DNA of 20,569 bases, taken from the IMG/VR virus record IMGVR_UViG_3300044834_000099, positions 1-20,569 of that record. One strand, given 5' to 3'. The notes under the pieces are model-generated. The model ran no database searches. It was not told the origin of the DNA and saw nothing but the letters and a program-made list of their open reading frames with translations. This DNA is from a virus. Of this stretch, positions 8,872 through 16,555 are shown piece by piece. The position numbers were made by a program, and so were the translations under genes. Each line of letters begins with the position of its first letter. Positions within the stretch are counted from its first letter, which is position 1.

Positions 8872-9909
8872 ATGAGCGAGGTCATCGAGTCCGGTGTCGG
8901 CACGATCAACTACGTGCCGCAGAGCGCCAAGGGCAGCGTCCCGACGGCGGCGAGCACCGCGGTAGGGACGAACCGGCCGAAGGCGGCCAACGGCACCGAG
9001 CTGAAGCCGAACAAGCGCGGCGACAGTGAGGAGTACGTCGACGGCAACGCGTGGGGCTCGCCGAGTCAGTACACGGTCGGCACCGGCGGCCAGGTCGGCC
9101 AGGTCGTTATCCAGCCGCAGCCCGAGAATGCCCCGCTGTTCCTCGCCCAGCTCGTCGCGACCGACGTCGTGACCGGTGCGGGCGACCCCTACACCCACAC
9201 GATCACGACGGGCGCGACATCCGGCAAGTACGGCGGCTGGTATCAGAAGACTGGTTCGGTGATCGGCCCCGCCCGCCAGCTCTACTGGGACTCGAAGATC
9301 GGCAAGCTCACGTGGGAGTGCGGCCAGGAGCAGTACACCGCGCACATGACGATGGAGATCATGGCGCTCAAGCCGAGCCAGGCGTTTGCAACCGACCCGG
9401 CGAAGACCGAGGACACCTCCGACCCGTACCTCTGGTCTGAGAGCGATGGTCAGGTTGTGTTCGACGCGACCACGCTCGGCGACGTCAACGGTGAGGTCTT
9501 CGAGTTCGACACGGGCATGGAGGCCTACTGGGGCAACAGCATGGAGCCCGCCCAGCTCGTCGCCAAGAAGGGCATCATCACCCGCACGCTGAAGACGGTC
9601 GTGACCGACGACACGCTGCTCAAGTTCAATAAGGCGGTCTACAACAACACGGCGCCGTCCGCCGGCGACCGGCCGGTCAAGGACGTTTTCTACGCGAGCA
9701 TCGTCAACAAGTACGCGCGGTCGGCGACGCGCTACTTCCAGATCACCACGCCGCGCGTCGCGATCAAGGCGGACGACCTCGCCGTCGGCCCGCGTGCCGA
9801 GGGGGGCACCGTCCCGATCGAGTTCGGCGGCCAGTGCCTCAAGAGCGGCGCCACGCCCGCTGCCACGATCGTGGCCCTGACCGGCGACGCGACGTCGTAC
9901 GCGGCATAG
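8872..9909 (+). CDS. Major tail tube protein
   Basis: This protein polymerises around the tape measure to form the tail tube. At 345 residues it is within the range for siphovirus tube proteins that carry an extra domain. The N-terminus (SGVGTINYVPQSAKGSVPTAAS) resembles that of actinophage tube proteins. Characteristic beta-strand stretches include GGQVGQVVIQPQPENAPLFLAQL, DPYTHTITTG, ARQLYWDSKIGKLTWE and AHMTMEIMALKPSQ. Another strand block (YFQITTPRVAIKADDLAVGP) precedes the end GGTVPIEFGGQCLKSG, typical of the last strands. It directly precedes the chaperone genes and tape measure, which is the conserved order. No signal peptide or membrane segment is seen. Confidence 0.85.
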   Translation: MSEVIESGVGTINYVPQSAKGSVPTAASTAVGTNRPKAANGTELKPNKRGDSEEYVDGNAWGSPSQYTVGTGGQVGQVVIQPQPENAPLFLAQLVATDVVTGAGDPYTHTITTGATSGKYGGWYQKTGSVIGPARQLYWDSKIGKLTWECGQEQYTAHMTMEIMALKPSQAFATDPAKTEDTSDPYLWSESDGQVVFDATTLGDVNGEVFEFDTGMEAYWGNSMEPAQLVAKKGIITRTLKTVVTDDTLLKFNKAVYNNTAPSAGDRPVKDVFYASIVNKYARSATRYFQITTPRVAIKADDLAVGPRAEGGTVPIEFGGQCLKSGATPAATIVALTGDATSYAA

Positions 9910-9910
9910 C

Positions 9911-10639
9911 GTGGCCGCCACGACGAGCGGGCGGCCCCGTGCCGCCCGCGTAACGCCCGTGCCCCTGCCGGTCGTCACGGTCGCCCGGATGGAGGAGTTC
10001 ACCCTGCTGATCGAGCGGGCCGTCTCAGAGAAGACGAGTGTCTTCATCGACGCGCAGAACGACTACCGGGAGAAGCACCGCGAGGCGACCGACCGGCCAC
10101 TGACCGCGCAGGAGGCGGCGCAGATCGCGGCGGCGATGACCGACGCGCTCGGCAAGAATGTCCAGGACGATCCGGGCGGCGCGGTCCGCCAGATCCAGGA
10201 GTCGGGGTTGCGCGCCTACGACGAGCCGACCGGCGTCGAGGTCCTGTTCGCCGCCGGCCTGGCCACCGCGCCCGCGATGCTCGACATCGCGCTGCAACTC
10301 GTCGCGTTGATCGAGCTGCCCGAGGATGCATTCGAGCAGGCCCGTGAGGCGGCCACTCTCGACGACTCGATCGCCGAGGCCCGGCGGGCGCTGTCGAAGC
10401 TCCCGGTCGCCGACGCACGCTCGCGTGCGATCAAGGCGGTCGACCACCTGACGAGCGCGATGGGAGTGGCGCCGGGGGAAGCGGTGCGCCTGGTCACGCG
10501 CCTGGTCGGTCAGGCGATGGGTCAGGCGCTCCAGATGAACCCGCAGCTCGGCTCAGCATTGTCGTCCTTGGTGGGCTCGCTCGACTCGGCTGGTCCCGGC
10601 GAGCCGTCCTCTACGACACCCCCTACCGAGACGCCGTAG
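9911..10639 (+). CDS. Tail assembly chaperone (gpG-like, unshifted product)
   Basis: This is the short product of the chaperone pair that binds the tape measure and helps tube proteins polymerise. The 242-residue protein starts with GTG one base after the tail tube stop. It has a variable N-terminus, a helical core (EEFTLLIERAVSEKTSVFIDA, LTAQEAAQIAAAMTDAL, VEVLFAAGLATAPAMLDIALQL) and a low-complexity S/T/P/G-rich end (SSTTPPTETP). Its position between tube and tape measure is the normal one for gpG homologues. The reading frame shifted by -1 remains open across the 3' end of this gene and runs to 10815, where the tape measure begins, as expected for gpGT production. Confidence 0.75.
   Translation: MAATTSGRPRAARVTPVPLPVVTVARMEEFTLLIERAVSEKTSVFIDAQNDYREKHREATDRPLTAQEAAQIAAAMTDALGKNVQDDPGGAVRQIQESGLRAYDEPTGVEVLFAAGLATAPAMLDIALQLVALIELPEDAFEQAREAATLDDSIAEARRALSKLPVADARSRAIKAVDHLTSAMGVAPGEAVRLVTRLVGQAMGQALQMNPQLGSALSSLVGSLDSAGPGEPSSTTPPTETP
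10474..10624 (+). promoter_or_regulatory. Candidate -1 frameshift region
   Basis: Both reading frames are open here and encode plausible protein near the 3' end. Two slippery candidates occur in the chaperone frame. One is GGGGGAA at 10474-10480 (reading CCG GGG GAA), where the P-site GGG re-pairs perfectly after a -1 slip but GAA does not. The other is CCC CCT at 10619-10624, where a proline tRNA on CCT can move back to CCC. Neither is a textbook X-XXY-YYZ heptamer, so the exact site is uncertain. Confidence 0.35.
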
Positions 10640-10815
10640 CGCTCCTTCGCATGTTCGAGCGCGACGACAGGGACACCCACCGGCGCATGATGCTCGCCGT
10701 CCACGGCATCGACCTGCCCGACGACGGGCCGCCCAAGCCGGGCCAGACCAAGCCCCGCACTGGGCTGCGGTCGTTCCACGACCGCATCGCGCGCAAGCTG
10801 AAGGGGCGCAGGTAG
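10624..10815 (+). CDS. -1 frame extension of tail assembly chaperone (gpT-like part)
   Basis: This short segment is open in the frame one base behind the chaperone and ends with TAG at 10813-10815, one base before the GTG of the tape measure. It reads YRDAVALLRMFERDDRDTHR, then RMMLAVHGIDLPDD, a proline/lysine linker, and GLRSFHDRIARKLKGRR. In the shifted frame the upstream codons also look protein-like (GWSRRAVLYDTP). The only ATG, at 10651, has no ribosome binding site, so translation most likely comes from -1 frameshifting on the 9911 gene, as in lambda gpG/gpGT and most siphoviruses. The fusion would have roughly 300 residues. The start given here is only the first codon after the downstream slip candidate. 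The basic C-terminus may be the part that contacts the tape measure. Confidence 0.65.
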   Translation, partial: YRDAVALLRMFERDDRDTHRRMMLAVHGIDLPDDGPPKPGQTKPRTGLRSFHDRIARKLKGRR

Positions 10816-10816
10816 G

Positions 10817-13800
10817 GTGTCGCTCGACGCCGGCTCGGTCTACGCCACGCTCGGAGGCCGGTTCAACCGCTCCGGGTTCGTCGCGTTCGACAGCGCGATG
10901 CACAAGTCGAGCCGCAGCGTCGACGTGTTCGAGCGCGGTATGGGCCGGTCGATGTCGCGCTCGTCGCGCGCTCTCCATTCGATGGGCCGTGCTGCGACCC
11001 AGGCCGCCGGGCTCGGCGCGGCTGGCGGGGTCCTGGCGCTCGGCTACGCGATGGTCGGGACGGTCAAGAAGGCCGCCGACTTTGAGGCTCAGCTGTCCTC
11101 GCTCGCGTCCGTGTCGGGCGCGAACGGACGGCAGATGGAGAGCTTCAAGAAGCAGGCGCTCGACGCCGGCGCGGCGACAAAGTACAGCGCCCTCCAGGCC
11201 GCCGAGGCGCAGACCGAGCTGGCCAAGGGCGGCATGTCCGTCAGGGACATCATCGGTGGTGGCCTAAAGGGAGCGCTCGGCCTCGCCGCCGCAGGTGAGC
11301 TCGACCTCGCCGCCGCGGCCGCCTACACCGCGAACGCGATGAATCTGTTCGGCCTGCAGGGCAACCAGGCCACCCACGTCGCCGACGCGCTCGCCTCTGC
11401 AGCGAATCGCACGACAGCAGACGTCGGCGACTTCGGGATGGCCCTCACCCAGGGAGGCTCGGCGGCGAAGGCGGCCGGCCTGTCGTTCGACCAGACGATT
11501 GCGGCGCTCGAGGCGCTCGCGTCGATCGGTGTCAAGGGCTCCGACGCCGGCACGTCGCTGAAGGCGGCCCTGACCCAGCTCGCGTCTCCGACGAAGCAGT
11601 CGGCCGGCCTGATGGAGGAGCTCGGACTCAAGTTCTTCGACGCGCACGGGAAGATGAAGCCGGTCGCCGACATCGCCGGGATGCTCCGCGAGCGGCTCGG
11701 CGGGCTGACGAAGGAGCAGCGCCTCCAAGCGGCCACCACACTGGTCGGCACGGACGGCATGCGCGCCCTGCTCGCGCTCTACGACGCGGGGCCGCGGAAG
11801 ATCAAGGACTTCGAGCAGGGCCTCGCCCGCCACGGCACCGCCGCCGAGGTCGCGGCGAAGAAGCAGGACAACCTGAAGGGCAAGCTCGAGAACCTCCAGG
11901 GGTCGCTCGAGACCGCGGCGATCGTCATCGGCACCGAGATGATTCCGGTGCTGCAGGACGCGGCGGTGGACCTGACGGACTTCGTCAACAGGGCAGCCGC
12001 GAGCGGCGACATCAAGCACCTCGGCGAGGACCTCGCGAGCGGGCTGCGCACGGCGATCGGTGCGGTCCCGGACATCGTCCACGGCATCGGCCAGATCGGC
12101 AGCACAGCCGGCGACGCGATCGGCACGGTCAGCGGCCTCGTCAACGCGCTCGGTGGGATCGACACAGTGGGCCCGGCTCTGCTCGGTGCCGTCGCCGGGT
12201 TCGCAGCCTTCCGCGTCGTGGCGGCGATCACCCCCACGGTCATCGGGCTTGCGACGGCGCTCGGCGATGTCGCACTGGCCGCGCGCGCCGGCGGGGCCGC
12301 GTTCGCCGCCTCCACGCTCATCTCGATGGTCAACCCGGTTACCGCGGTAGCGGTCGCGTTCGTCGCCCTCGGCGCCGCCCTCGCGCTGGCAGCAGGCCAG
12401 GAGAGCTACGAGGAGCGCATCGCCCGACAGTCCGCCGAGGCGAAACGCGCGCAGGCCGACGCGGTCCGGGCACTCGGGGAAGCGGAGCGGTCGTCGGCCG
12501 ACGCGACCCTGTCGGCACGACGCGCCGACATCGAGCACGAGCGGGCGGTAGCGCACTTCAACCAGGTCCGCAAGACCGCGACCAAGGGCTCACTCGAATA
12601 CCGCGACGCGCAGCTGCGCGTCCGAGAGACCGCCGCTCAGGCCGCCGAGGCGCACCGCCGCGAGGCCGGCGAGACCAAGAAGCGCGTCGACGCCGCAAAA
12701 GAGGAGGTCGGGGTCGCCGAGCGCCGCGAGCGGACAACCGCCAAGGAGCTGGCGCTCCAGCAGAAGCTCAACCGCACGAGCGGCGGCGACCGCAACCCGG
12801 CCGTGATCGACGCGACGAAGCGCCACGAGGAGGCGCTCCGGAGGCTCGAGTCAGCCAACCTCCGCGCCGCCATCTCCGAGATCAACTACCAGCGCGCACT
12901 ACAGGGCGCCGGCCCGGTCCACCGCAAGAACGCGGTCGCCATCCACGACCTGTTTGCCCTCTACAACCACCTTCCGAAGCGTGTCGTCACCGCCCTGATG
13001 GCGACCGACGAGAACGCGGTCGGGAAGATCGGCCGGCTGGCGGTCAAACTCGCCGGGCTCGGGAAGAGACGCACCGTGGCCAGGATCCTCGCGTCGTCGG
13101 ACACGGCGGAGGAGGCGATCAGGCGGCTTCAGCGCTATCTCAACAGCCTGCGCGACAAGAACATCACAGTCACGACGACCGAGCGGCGGGTCATCAAGGG
13201 ATCGCCGTCGATGCCGTCAGCACGCGGGCACGCGACCGGCCACAAGACGAGGGGTCCCGAGGTCGCGCTGATCGGCGAGGGTGCAGCGCCCGAGTACGTG
13301 ATCCCGACAGAGCCCCGCTTCAGGGGCCGCGGCGTCGAGCTGTGGATGCAGGCCGGCCACGACCTCGGTATCCCCGGCTTCCGCGCCGGCGTCCGCAAGC
13401 CCGGCGCCAAGCCCGCGGCGCCGGCGGCGAAGAAGAAGCCGCCCAAGCGCTTCATCCCGAAGCCGCGCGACCCACTCAGGCTGCCGGTGGAGGACATCGA
13501 GCACCAGGCCGAAACCGCGAAGGGCAAGTACCAGGACGAGCAGAACAAGGTCCAAGACCTCGAGCGCACCGCCAACCAGAAGCGCACGAAGTCCAACACC
13601 GCCGAGCGCGCCCGCGCACGGGCGAAGCTGCCCGCCGCCAAGCGCCTGCGCGACAAGCTCCACGCGATCTACAAGCAGCGCCAGAAGGAGGCGAAGGAGG
13701 CGCGCCGCTACCAGAACGCGATCAAGGAGCAGGAGCAGCTCGTCGAGATCGCCCGCGGGCAGATGGAGCTCGCCGACAAGAACGACGACCAACACGCCTA

Positions 13801-14518
13801 CGAAACGGCAAAGGGCCGGCGCGCCACCGCGCTGACGGCTCTCGAGACGCTGATCGACGACGCGCAGAAGCACGTCAAAAAGGGCTCCGACTACTACAAC
13901 CAGCTGCAGATCGAGCTGGGGCAACTCGCGCTCGACCAAAAAGACCTCGCCGACGCAGCCAATCAGCCGGAGCAGGCAGCGACCGACCCGTTCACCCTGA
14001 CGCCAGAGCAGCAGGCGCAGCTCGACCAGCTCGAGGCGGGCATCGCGCTCGCCGAGCTGACGCCGACACTCGAGGACGACAAGGCGGCGGTCGGCGCGCT
14101 CACCGTGTTCCGCGAGGGGATCCTCTCGTCGCTGCAGCAACGCGGCGCCCCGTCCGGCGCGATCCGCGACGCCGCCCGCGACGTGAAGTCCGCGCGCGAT
14201 GAGCTGGCCGGCTTGGCCGGCGGAGGCACGTCGAGCGCGAGCGTGGCCGACAACCCGGACCTCCAGGCCCAGCTCGATCAGGAGCGCCAGCGCCGCCAGG
14301 TGACAGACAACGCCCTGCGTCTCTCCGAGGCAGCCCTCGCGACCTTCGGCCCGGCCGGCTCGACACCGCCGGGCAGTAGCGGTAACGCGCTGACCGTCAA
14401 CGTGAACAGTCTCGTCCCGCCGAACCGACAGTGGATCGACGAGATCGGCCGGCTAGCCACAGACGGCCAGGGGTCGCAGGGCTACCGGCAAGCGCCGCGC
14501 GAACGGATCGGGGTCTAG
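10817..14518 (+). CDS. Tail tape measure protein
   Basis: This 1233-residue protein sets tail length and is ejected through the tube during infection. The N-terminal region (about 80-380) matches the PhageMin_Tail/TIGR01760 core: KKAADFEAQLSSLASVSG, YSALQAAEAQTELAKGG, SFDQTIAALEALASIGVKGSDAGTSLK, and LVGTDGMRALLAL. A hydrophobic stretch (about 449-525) can span membranes. A coiled coil follows (about 528-695). Near 803-845 is HATGHKTRGPEVALIGEGAAPEYVIP, a motif common in tape measures. A second charged helical region (about 892-1058) comes next. The C-terminus (ALTVNVNSL ... GQGSQGYRQAPRERIGV) is typical of actinophage tape measures. No lysozyme or peptidase motif was seen. At about 0.15 nm per residue the tail would be roughly 185 nm. 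The GTG start lies one base after the chaperone extension stop. Confidence 0.92.
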   Translation: MSLDAGSVYATLGGRFNRSGFVAFDSAMHKSSRSVDVFERGMGRSMSRSSRALHSMGRAATQAAGLGAAGGVLALGYAMVGTVKKAADFEAQLSSLASVSGANGRQMESFKKQALDAGAATKYSALQAAEAQTELAKGGMSVRDIIGGGLKGALGLAAAGELDLAAAAAYTANAMNLFGLQGNQATHVADALASAANRTTADVGDFGMALTQGGSAAKAAGLSFDQTIAALEALASIGVKGSDAGTSLKAALTQLASPTKQSAGLMEELGLKFFDAHGKMKPVADIAGMLRERLGGLTKEQRLQAATTLVGTDGMRALLALYDAGPRKIKDFEQGLARHGTAAEVAAKKQDNLKGKLENLQGSLETAAIVIGTEMIPVLQDAAVDLTDFVNRAAASGDIKHLGEDLASGLRTAIGAVPDIVHGIGQIGSTAGDAIGTVSGLVNALGGIDTVGPALLGAVAGFAAFRVVAAITPTVIGLATALGDVALAARAGGAAFAASTLISMVNPVTAVAVAFVALGAALALAAGQESYEERIARQSAEAKRAQADAVRALGEAERSSADATLSARRADIEHERAVAHFNQVRKTATKGSLEYRDAQLRVRETAAQAAEAHRREAGETKKRVDAAKEEVGVAERRERTTAKELALQQKLNRTSGGDRNPAVIDATKRHEEALRRLESANLRAAISEINYQRALQGAGPVHRKNAVAIHDLFALYNHLPKRVVTALMATDENAVGKIGRLAVKLAGLGKRRTVARILASSDTAEEAIRRLQRYLNSLRDKNITVTTTERRVIKGSPSMPSARGHATGHKTRGPEVALIGEGAAPEYVIPTEPRFRGRGVELWMQAGHDLGIPGFRAGVRKPGAKPAAPAAKKKPPKRFIPKPRDPLRLPVEDIEHQAETAKGKYQDEQNKVQDLERTANQKRTKSNTAERARARAKLPAAKRLRDKLHAIYKQRQKEAKEARRYQNAIKEQEQLVEIARGQMELADKNDDQHAYETAKGRRATALTALETLIDDAQKHVKKGSDYYNQLQIELGQLALDQKDLADAANQPEQAATDPFTLTPEQQAQLDQLEAGIALAELTPTLEDDKAAVGALTVFREGILSSLQQRGAPSGAIRDAARDVKSARDELAGLAGGGTSSASVADNPDLQAQLDQERQRRQVTDNALRLSEAALATFGPAGSTPPGSSGNALTVNVNSLVPPNRQWIDEIGRLATDGQGSQGYRQAPRERIGV

Positions 14519-16555
14519 ATGGACGGACTGAAGGTCGTCACGCTGTCCGCCGGCGGCCGCCCCGTGATGGTGGCGGACATCGAGGACGGGACCACCTACA
14601 CGCTGATCCGCGGCACTTTCAAGTACACGCCCGCCCAGCGGCGCCAGCAGACATCACAGCGCCCCGGCCGGTACGGCGGCGGGTGGATCGTCAGCGATGG
14701 ACAGGACAACGCCCAGGTGGGAGGCACATGGCTGGTCGCCGGCACGACCGCCGACCAGGTCAACGCCAACACGGAGGCGCTGCTCGCGCTCGTCGATTAC
14801 GCCGGCGTCGGCCGGCTGATCGAGTGGACCCCGGATGGCGCCACCCGCCCGGTCTACCCGGAGCTGCGCGGGCCCGGCACCTACACGCCGCAGTACGAGT
14901 GGGTCGAATACGCCGGCGCGCAGCTGATGAAGGTCGAGATCTCGTTCCCGTGCGCCCCGCTGCCGCTGCTCCTGCCGATGGACATCGGTGACGACTTCTC
15001 GGTCGACTCGCTCGCCGACTACACGGCCGACGCCGGCTCGAAAGCAGATCTGGCGATCGCGGGCGGAGTGCTCACGGCGACCGGCAACCTGACCGCCGAG
15101 AAGGCGCTCTACCACTCCGTGCGCGGTCACTCGGTCGGCGATCACGAGGAGACGCTGAAGTTCACGCCTGGCGCGACGATCACGAGCTTCAAGGCGGGCG
15201 TGCGGCTGAAGCGCACCGCCTCCAACCAGTACCTCGAGGTCTACGTCGACGACAACGGCACGAACAGTCGCCTCAGGATCGACAAACTCGTCGGAGGCGT
15301 CCGCACGAACCTCGCCTCAACCAACCTCGCCACGCGTCTATCGAACGGCACGGCCGGCTGGGTCCGTGGCCGGATCGAGGGCAATGTCGTTTCCTCCGAG
15401 TACTTCACCGCCGCGCCGACCCCAATGGGCGCGCCGACGCTGGCACCTGCCGCCTATACGCTGACGGGCGGCGAGATCGCCGCCTTCGGATCGGCTGCCA
15501 CCGGCGGGCGCGGGTTCTCATGGATCCCCCAACACGCCTCGGCGGCGCTCGACGACTACGCCTCGCTGCCCTACACGCGCCGCAACGTCACGCTGCCCCA
15601 GTCGATCCAGCTCGTCGGCGACGTACCCGGTCGAGCGCCCGCGCTCTGCGACATCGTGGTCACTCCGTCGGGCGGCGCAGCCGCGCCGATCTGGGCGCTC
15701 GTCGCCTGGTCGAAGCGGCCCGGCGCACCACTCGCCTCGTCGGTCGCCCCGTTCGGGATCATCGAAGCGGAGTCCGCCAGCGACCTGTCCGGCTGGGCGG
15801 TCCTCGCCGCGGGTGCCGCACGCGGCGGCAGCGTCCTCCAGTGGACCACATCGGGCGCCGGCGCCGCGACGGCCTCCTGGCTGATCGATCCGGCGACGCT
15901 CGTCGCCGACGAGTTCACCCAGGGTGAGCTAGACCTGGAAGTCTGGGCGCGTGTGGCGGTCGACGCCGCGGTCGTGTCGCCCAAGCTGACGCTGAGCGTC
16001 CGTCCCGAGTCGGGAACGAGCTTCGGCGCCGAGCGGTTCACCCACGAGTGGGGGTCGGCCGGCAAGCTGCTCGTCAAGCCATCGAGCGGAGTGCCGTGGC
16101 GGCCCGTGCGGCTCGGCACGCTGACCGTGGCGGTCAACCCGCTGACGCCGCGCCGGTGGAAGCTCTGGCTCGCCGGAGCGGTCGCGAGCGGCTCGAGTGG
16201 CGGCTTCTATCTCGACTACCTCCCCGTCGTGGTCGCCCGCCAGCGGGCGCTCGGGCCGACATCCGAGCCCAACGACTCGAGCTACCCCAAGTTCGTCTCC
16301 TCAACCTCCGAGACGACGAAGCGGGTCCGCTCCGACCTGTCCGCCGTCGTGGCCGCACCGCCAGCCTACGGCCACGCCGACCATGGGCTTGGCGGCTCGC
16401 TGCTTGAGATCCCGTCCGGGCCGGTCGACGCGCTCGTCAAGCTGTCGTCGGTCGTGCCAGACGACCCGACGGTTAACACGGCCGACGAGCAGCTCGCGCA
16501 CTCGGCCACCGTTCACTTCGCCGTCACCCCGCGGGTCCGTCTCCTCAATGGCTGA
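14519..16555 (+). CDS. Distal tail (Dit-like) minor tail protein with extra beta-sandwich modules
   Basis: This is the first tail-tip protein after the tape measure, the usual place of a distal tail protein that caps the tube and organises the baseplate. The 678-residue product is much longer than a minimal Dit. Residues about 1-155 (KVVTLSAGGRPVMVADIEDG, then TPQYEWVEYAGAQLMKVEISFPC) fit the Dit/gp17-like N-terminal domain. About 160-320 (DDFSVDSLADYTADAG, HEETLKFTPGATITSFKAGVRL, NQYLEVYVDDNG, WVRGRIEGNVVSSEYF) looks like a LamG/concanavalin-type jelly roll. About 355-400 contains LPQSIQLVGDVPGRAPALCDIVVT and IWALVAWS, common in actinophage tail-tip proteins. About 415-565 is another beta-sandwich. 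Carbohydrate binding is plausible for these modules but not shown. Its ATG directly follows the tape measure stop. Confidence 0.75.
   Translation: MDGLKVVTLSAGGRPVMVADIEDGTTYTLIRGTFKYTPAQRRQQTSQRPGRYGGGWIVSDGQDNAQVGGTWLVAGTTADQVNANTEALLALVDYAGVGRLIEWTPDGATRPVYPELRGPGTYTPQYEWVEYAGAQLMKVEISFPCAPLPLLLPMDIGDDFSVDSLADYTADAGSKADLAIAGGVLTATGNLTAEKALYHSVRGHSVGDHEETLKFTPGATITSFKAGVRLKRTASNQYLEVYVDDNGTNSRLRIDKLVGGVRTNLASTNLATRLSNGTAGWVRGRIEGNVVSSEYFTAAPTPMGAPTLAPAAYTLTGGEIAAFGSAATGGRGFSWIPQHASAALDDYASLPYTRRNVTLPQSIQLVGDVPGRAPALCDIVVTPSGGAAAPIWALVAWSKRPGAPLASSVAPFGIIEAESASDLSGWAVLAAGAARGGSVLQWTTSGAGAATASWLIDPATLVADEFTQGELDLEVWARVAVDAAVVSPKLTLSVRPESGTSFGAERFTHEWGSAGKLLVKPSSGVPWRPVRLGTLTVAVNPLTPRRWKLWLAGAVASGSSGGFYLDYLPVVVARQRALGPTSEPNDSSYPKFVSSTSETTKRVRSDLSAVVAAPPAYGHADHGLGGSLLEIPSGPVDALVKLSSVVPDDPTVNTADEQLAHSATVHFAVTPRVRLLNG

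Follow-up and report, generated by a model that had tools for sequence, protein, structure and literature searches.

A probable −1 frameshifted tail assembly chaperone in an uncultured actinophage-like virus

Introduction

Frameshifted tail assembly chaperones are already known from many phages, and the roles assigned to their two products, gpG and gpGT, come from work on lambda as summarised in PMC5009743. For one slip signal, the PRFect study reported a 'fivetwo' class whose roughly one thousand SEA-PHAGES cases all carry GGGGGAA, and offered G:U pairing as a reason why the A-site tRNA can re-pair on this heptamer (PMC10885494). In E. coli, C_CC.U is among the few shift-prone tetramers, although it is weak and needs a strong stimulator (Sharma et al., PMC4066793). 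Here we describe a locus from an uncultured virus in which the unusual feature is mainly the position of the likely slip site and its hairpin, 156 bases before the stop. The window analysed is an entire IMG/VR virus record (IMGVR_UViG_3300044834_000099; 20 569 bases), whose ends may make it a fragment; the tail tube, chaperone and tape measure genes, the extension, both slip candidates and the hairpin lie on its + strand.

Results

The virus and its tail genes

The gene order in the window is small terminase, large terminase, portal, protease, scaffold, capsid, connectors, tail tube, the gene at 9911 and tape measure. The large terminase shares 57% identity with its counterpart in Corynebacterium phage Poushou, and with metagenomic contigs the figure reaches 74%; the virus is therefore called actinophage-like. 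Just 5′ of the portal start (TTG 2139) is a nine-G run (2121–2135), which is strongly Shine-Dalgarno-like, yet an error-prone homopolymer. The major tail tube protein (8872–9909; 345 aa) matches Pfam PF18906, Phage_tube_2, above the gathering cut-off (E 8e-8), and a search of phages and viral contigs yielded no close relative. The tape measure protein (10817–14518; 1233 aa) is of the TP901 type (PF10145, E 7e-48; TIGR01760, E 9e-62); it has relatives, and the chaperones next to these are unrelated to that of the window. The 678-aa protein encoded 3′ of it (14519–16555) has no Pfam, PHROG or NCBIfam family match, and its relatives were found in two viral contigs only (38–40%).

Between tail tube and tape measure lies a frame-0 gene of 242 codons (9911–10639), starting at GTG 9911 or ATG 9989, which would encode the short form of the tail assembly chaperone. 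It can be called gpG-like by position alone, with no family or homologue match. Homologues of chaperone and extension were sought in phages, plasmids, viral contigs, genome contigs and 37 related virus records, and none was found; neither part has a convincing match in Pfam, PHROGs or NCBIfam. Single-sequence AlphaFold2 modelling gave an all-helical, low-confidence short form (pLDDT 45), and the two models obtained (pLDDT 45 and 57) were discarded as too poor.

The −1 frame 3′ of the chaperone gene is very probably coding

Relative to the 9911–10639 gene, frame −1 is stop-free from 10348 to a TAG at 10813–10815, one base before the tape measure GTG at 10817. The first-pass annotation of this DNA had the end of the frame and its spacing from the GTG right, and had followed the frame back only to 10460. 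Openness alone is weak evidence, the genome being GC-rich: frame −1 stays open in 7815 of 20 000 shuffles of 10640–10812 (39%), and across the genes of the window 0.7% of −1 codons are stops. Third-position GC in frame −1 is 0.97 over 10640–10812, a value matched by none of 20 000 shuffles. Codon log-odds derived from the window's remaining genes prefer frame −1 in each 30-nt block from 10631 to 10810, and codon periodicity in this frame is clear from about 10600 to 10812. Given this clear change of codon composition in favour of frame −1, the extension (10480–10815; 111 codons counted from GGGGGAA, plus the TAG), gpT-like by position, is very probably translated.

There are three ATG codons in frame −1, at 10651, 10687 and 10690, with Shine-Dalgarno energies of +0.4, −4.1 and −1.7 kcal/mol, respectively, compared with about −9 to −16 for most (not all) other genes in the window and −9.7 for the tape measure. 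Thus none of the start codons in the extension has a good Shine-Dalgarno sequence; the earlier remark that no ribosome binding site precedes 10651 is borne out, although that ATG is the first rather than the only one. A coding extension that lacks such a signal makes recoding from the upstream gene the simplest route, and we consider it likely that the chaperone has a coding −1 extension reached by frameshifting.

GGGGGAA is the best candidate slip site

The two slip candidates named in the first-pass annotation, GGGGGAA at 10474 and CCC CCT at 10619–10624, are both present. GGGGGAA (10474–10480; codons CCG/GGG/GAA, phase G_GGG_GAA) is the sole copy over both strands of the window (1.8 expected). 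The probability that one would fall in phase within the 290-nt overlap by chance, estimated from the window rate, is approximately 0.4%, though such figures are optimistic given that several motif classes could have been chosen. Among 20 actinophage chaperones compared, 12 have GGGGGAA in the same phase and eight an X_XXZ_ZZN heptamer. Three metagenomic relatives located through their terminase (L066, L083 and L102) also carry the same heptamer in the same phase. GGGGGAA had been described as seemingly non-standard, with poor A-site pairing; it is instead the usual actinophage chaperone heptamer (12/20; PMC10885494). Counted from it, the extension is 111 aa long, against 110–147 aa in five relatives.

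The heptamer is followed by a predicted RNA hairpin (10483–10532; −32.3 kcal/mol), absent from the first-pass account of the slip site and a likely stimulator, whose long stem begins at 10486, 5 nt past the heptamer. The z-score is −2.75 for 55 nt and −3.3 to −4.1 for the 50-nt window from 10483, which ranks among the most extreme 0.15% along the contig by energy and z. The hairpin is more stable than 98–99% of synonymous recodings, although 4% of other gene windows are equally extreme in this comparison. A comparable strong hairpin occupies the same place after GGGGGAA in D29, L083 and L102, while in L066 and Bxb1 no significant hairpin accompanies the heptamer, so the structure is not obligatory. 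An Rfam search yielded no frameshift element. Within 10484–10532 the hairpin is made of near-repeated codons (RLV..RLV, GQA.GQA), such that direct and inverted repeats overlap within protein-coding sequence. Taken with its hairpin, GGGGGAA is the best candidate for the slip site, a choice that we favour with some reserve.

Position of the composition switch and competing explanations

The heptamer lies 156 nt from the frame-0 stop, whereas slip motif and stop are 3–42 nt apart in the 20 actinophage chaperones. In a change-point test based on codons, composition switches at 10604 (3-bit interval 10553–10610), about 70–130 nt 3′ of GGGGGAA; in five GGGGGAA controls it falls between −6 and +18 nt from the motif. 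If slippage occurs at GGGGGAA, both frames would be read over 10481–10636, a 52-codon frame-0 tail and a −1 linker. Frame-0 composition persists to about 10550–10610, and 10481–10585 has the look of coding sequence in frame 0 only. A synonymous-choice test of −1 constraint over 10481–10636 gave a weak signal, with 4.3% of control windows as high. The late switch is expected if frame 0 stays constrained for 52 more codons where frame −1 is merely a linker; it is also what a later slip site or a missing base would produce.

Such a later site, the chief competitor of GGGGGAA, is offered by C_CCT (10621–10624, within CCC CCT at 10619–10624), where tRNA-Pro would move from CCT to CCC and yield a 301-aa product (...SSTTPP/YRDAVALL...) that retains the frame-0 helices. 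The tetramer is 12 nt 5′ of the frame-0 stop, as is usual for such chaperone genes, and nearer the composition switch than GGGGGAA; CCT is a rare proline codon in the window (3.7%), and the shift-prone character of C_CC.U in E. coli (PMC4066793) also speaks for it. We nevertheless regard slippage there as unlikely: tetramers are weak without a strong stimulator (PMC4066793) and no structure is predicted downstream (z about 0), the resulting extension of 63 aa is below every control, and composition prefers a switch 18–36 nt 5′ of the tetramer by about 5–7 bits. None of the 20 control chaperones depends on C_CCT, which Constance and Seahorse carry only overlapping an X_XXZ_ZZN heptamer. Recoding might also be absent altogether, with an assembly short by one base (about 10550–10636, for example in the five-C run at 10619), in which case a single uninterrupted ORF would encode the chaperone, or with a decayed gene. 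The sharp composition switch with little overlap would fit a missing base, and the window stands as one metagenomic fragment for which a second assembly was not found. However, the in-phase GGGGGAA and its hairpin would then become a coincidence, and the end of the extension adjoins the tape measure start, as it does in frameshifted relatives, so we judge this explanation improbable. Least probable of all is a separate small gene, starting at ATG 10651 (54 codons) or 10687 and coupled to the stop at 10637. Although 10651 is 11 nt past the frame-0 stop, near enough for re-initiation to be possible, Shine-Dalgarno energies at both starts fall short of the −9 kcal/mol or lower of most genes here, and frame −1 composition begins 5′ of 10651 (a start there is 5.6 bits worse).

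With slippage at GGGGGAA as the favoured reading, the chances are roughly even that the slip signal lies well inside the chaperone gene, with approximately 52 codons read in both frames and short and long forms that have alternative C-termini.

Discussion

The following scheme is what we infer for slippage, its place at GGGGGAA and the roles of both products. The 9911 gene would encode a gpG-like tail assembly chaperone, with the majority of ribosomes yielding the 242-aa short form. A minority would slip one base back at G_GGG_GAA (10474–10480), aided by the hairpin at 10483–10532, and read frame −1 to the TAG at 10813. The resulting fusion would be 301 aa long, with 190 aa from the chaperone and 111 aa from the extension. 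If the two forms behave like lambda gpG/gpGT, the part common to both may bind the tape measure, whereas the rare extension may recruit tail tube subunits. If this is correct, the short form ends in a 52-aa, partly helical tail and the long form in a linker and gpT-like domain. The long chaperone would then replace the short form's tail rather than simply extend the short form, and the two could differ by more than one domain. Cases of this kind could then escape programs that take the distance to the stop into account, for example PRFect, whose training set had a mean of 26 nt.

The arrangement, with tail tube, chaperone, −1 extension and TP901-type tape measure in order, is supported as gpG/gpGT-like. 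An ORF flanked by tube and tape measure genes is overlapped by a −1 ORF that reaches the tape measure, the downstream ORF is coding and has no initiation signal of its own, and a recognised slip heptamer stands in phase within the overlap (GGGGGAA, 10474; PMC10885494). A slip site near the frame-0 stop, which is usual though not strictly defining, is provided only by the competing C_CCT, GGGGGAA being 156 nt away. The first-pass annotation had made the same comparison with gpG/gpGT; gene order and the coding −1 extension support the arrangement, which is a separate matter from membership by sequence.

As to sequence, none of the PHROG tail assembly chaperone families (393, 3656, 5813 and others) matched the window extension at E 5, while these families do recognise the extensions of L066, L083, L102 and D29. 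Alignment with the actinophage extension domain using hhalign gave P 0.057, and against a 19-sequence HMM the score is equalled by 7% of shuffles. The extension (LARLGWSRRAVLYDTPYRDAVALLRMFERDD) does look similar to that domain (LAELIDKFGGAILSDLSEYHGVDLRDLFRDED) by eye, which would place the slip near 10573. This likeness was rejected as evidence, as the profile tests are not significant and the sole nearby tetramer, G_GGC, is of a class with little or no shifting in E. coli (PMC4066793). Two contigs with related distal tail proteins were also noted. In L111 (4724–5495; distal tail protein 38% identical to that of the window), the frame that is open after the chaperone-like gene preceding the tape measure is +1 rather than −1 and includes a cysteine-rich stretch (CECGCGWTGADD); it may be reached by a +1 shift or have its own start. 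In L110 (4682–5217), a short −1 frame runs right up to the tape measure, like that of the window, and no clear slip heptamer was seen.

The locus thus adds a probable frameshifted chaperone of which both halves lack a known family. Like lambda gpG/gpGT, its site lies between the tube and tape measure genes and it is predicted to make a short and a −1-extended form; unlike lambda, it has another likely slip heptamer, placed far from the frame-0 stop, and the likeness observed is one of arrangement. With the L5/D29-type mycobacteriophage chaperones (PHROGs 393 and 3656) it shares G_GGG_GAA in the same phase and an extension that ends at the tape measure, and with D29 the strong hairpin that follows; in that type the frame-0 stop comes 18 nt past the heptamer rather than 156, and the window extension, by contrast, fits no PHROG family. 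L066, L083 and L102 agree with the window in heptamer, phase and gene order, and L083 and L102 also in having a significant hairpin, but their frame-0 tails are short (0–6 residues) and their extensions have a recognisable chaperone extension domain. In the window, then, the heptamer and hairpin customary in actinophages seem to work at a long distance from the frame-0 stop.
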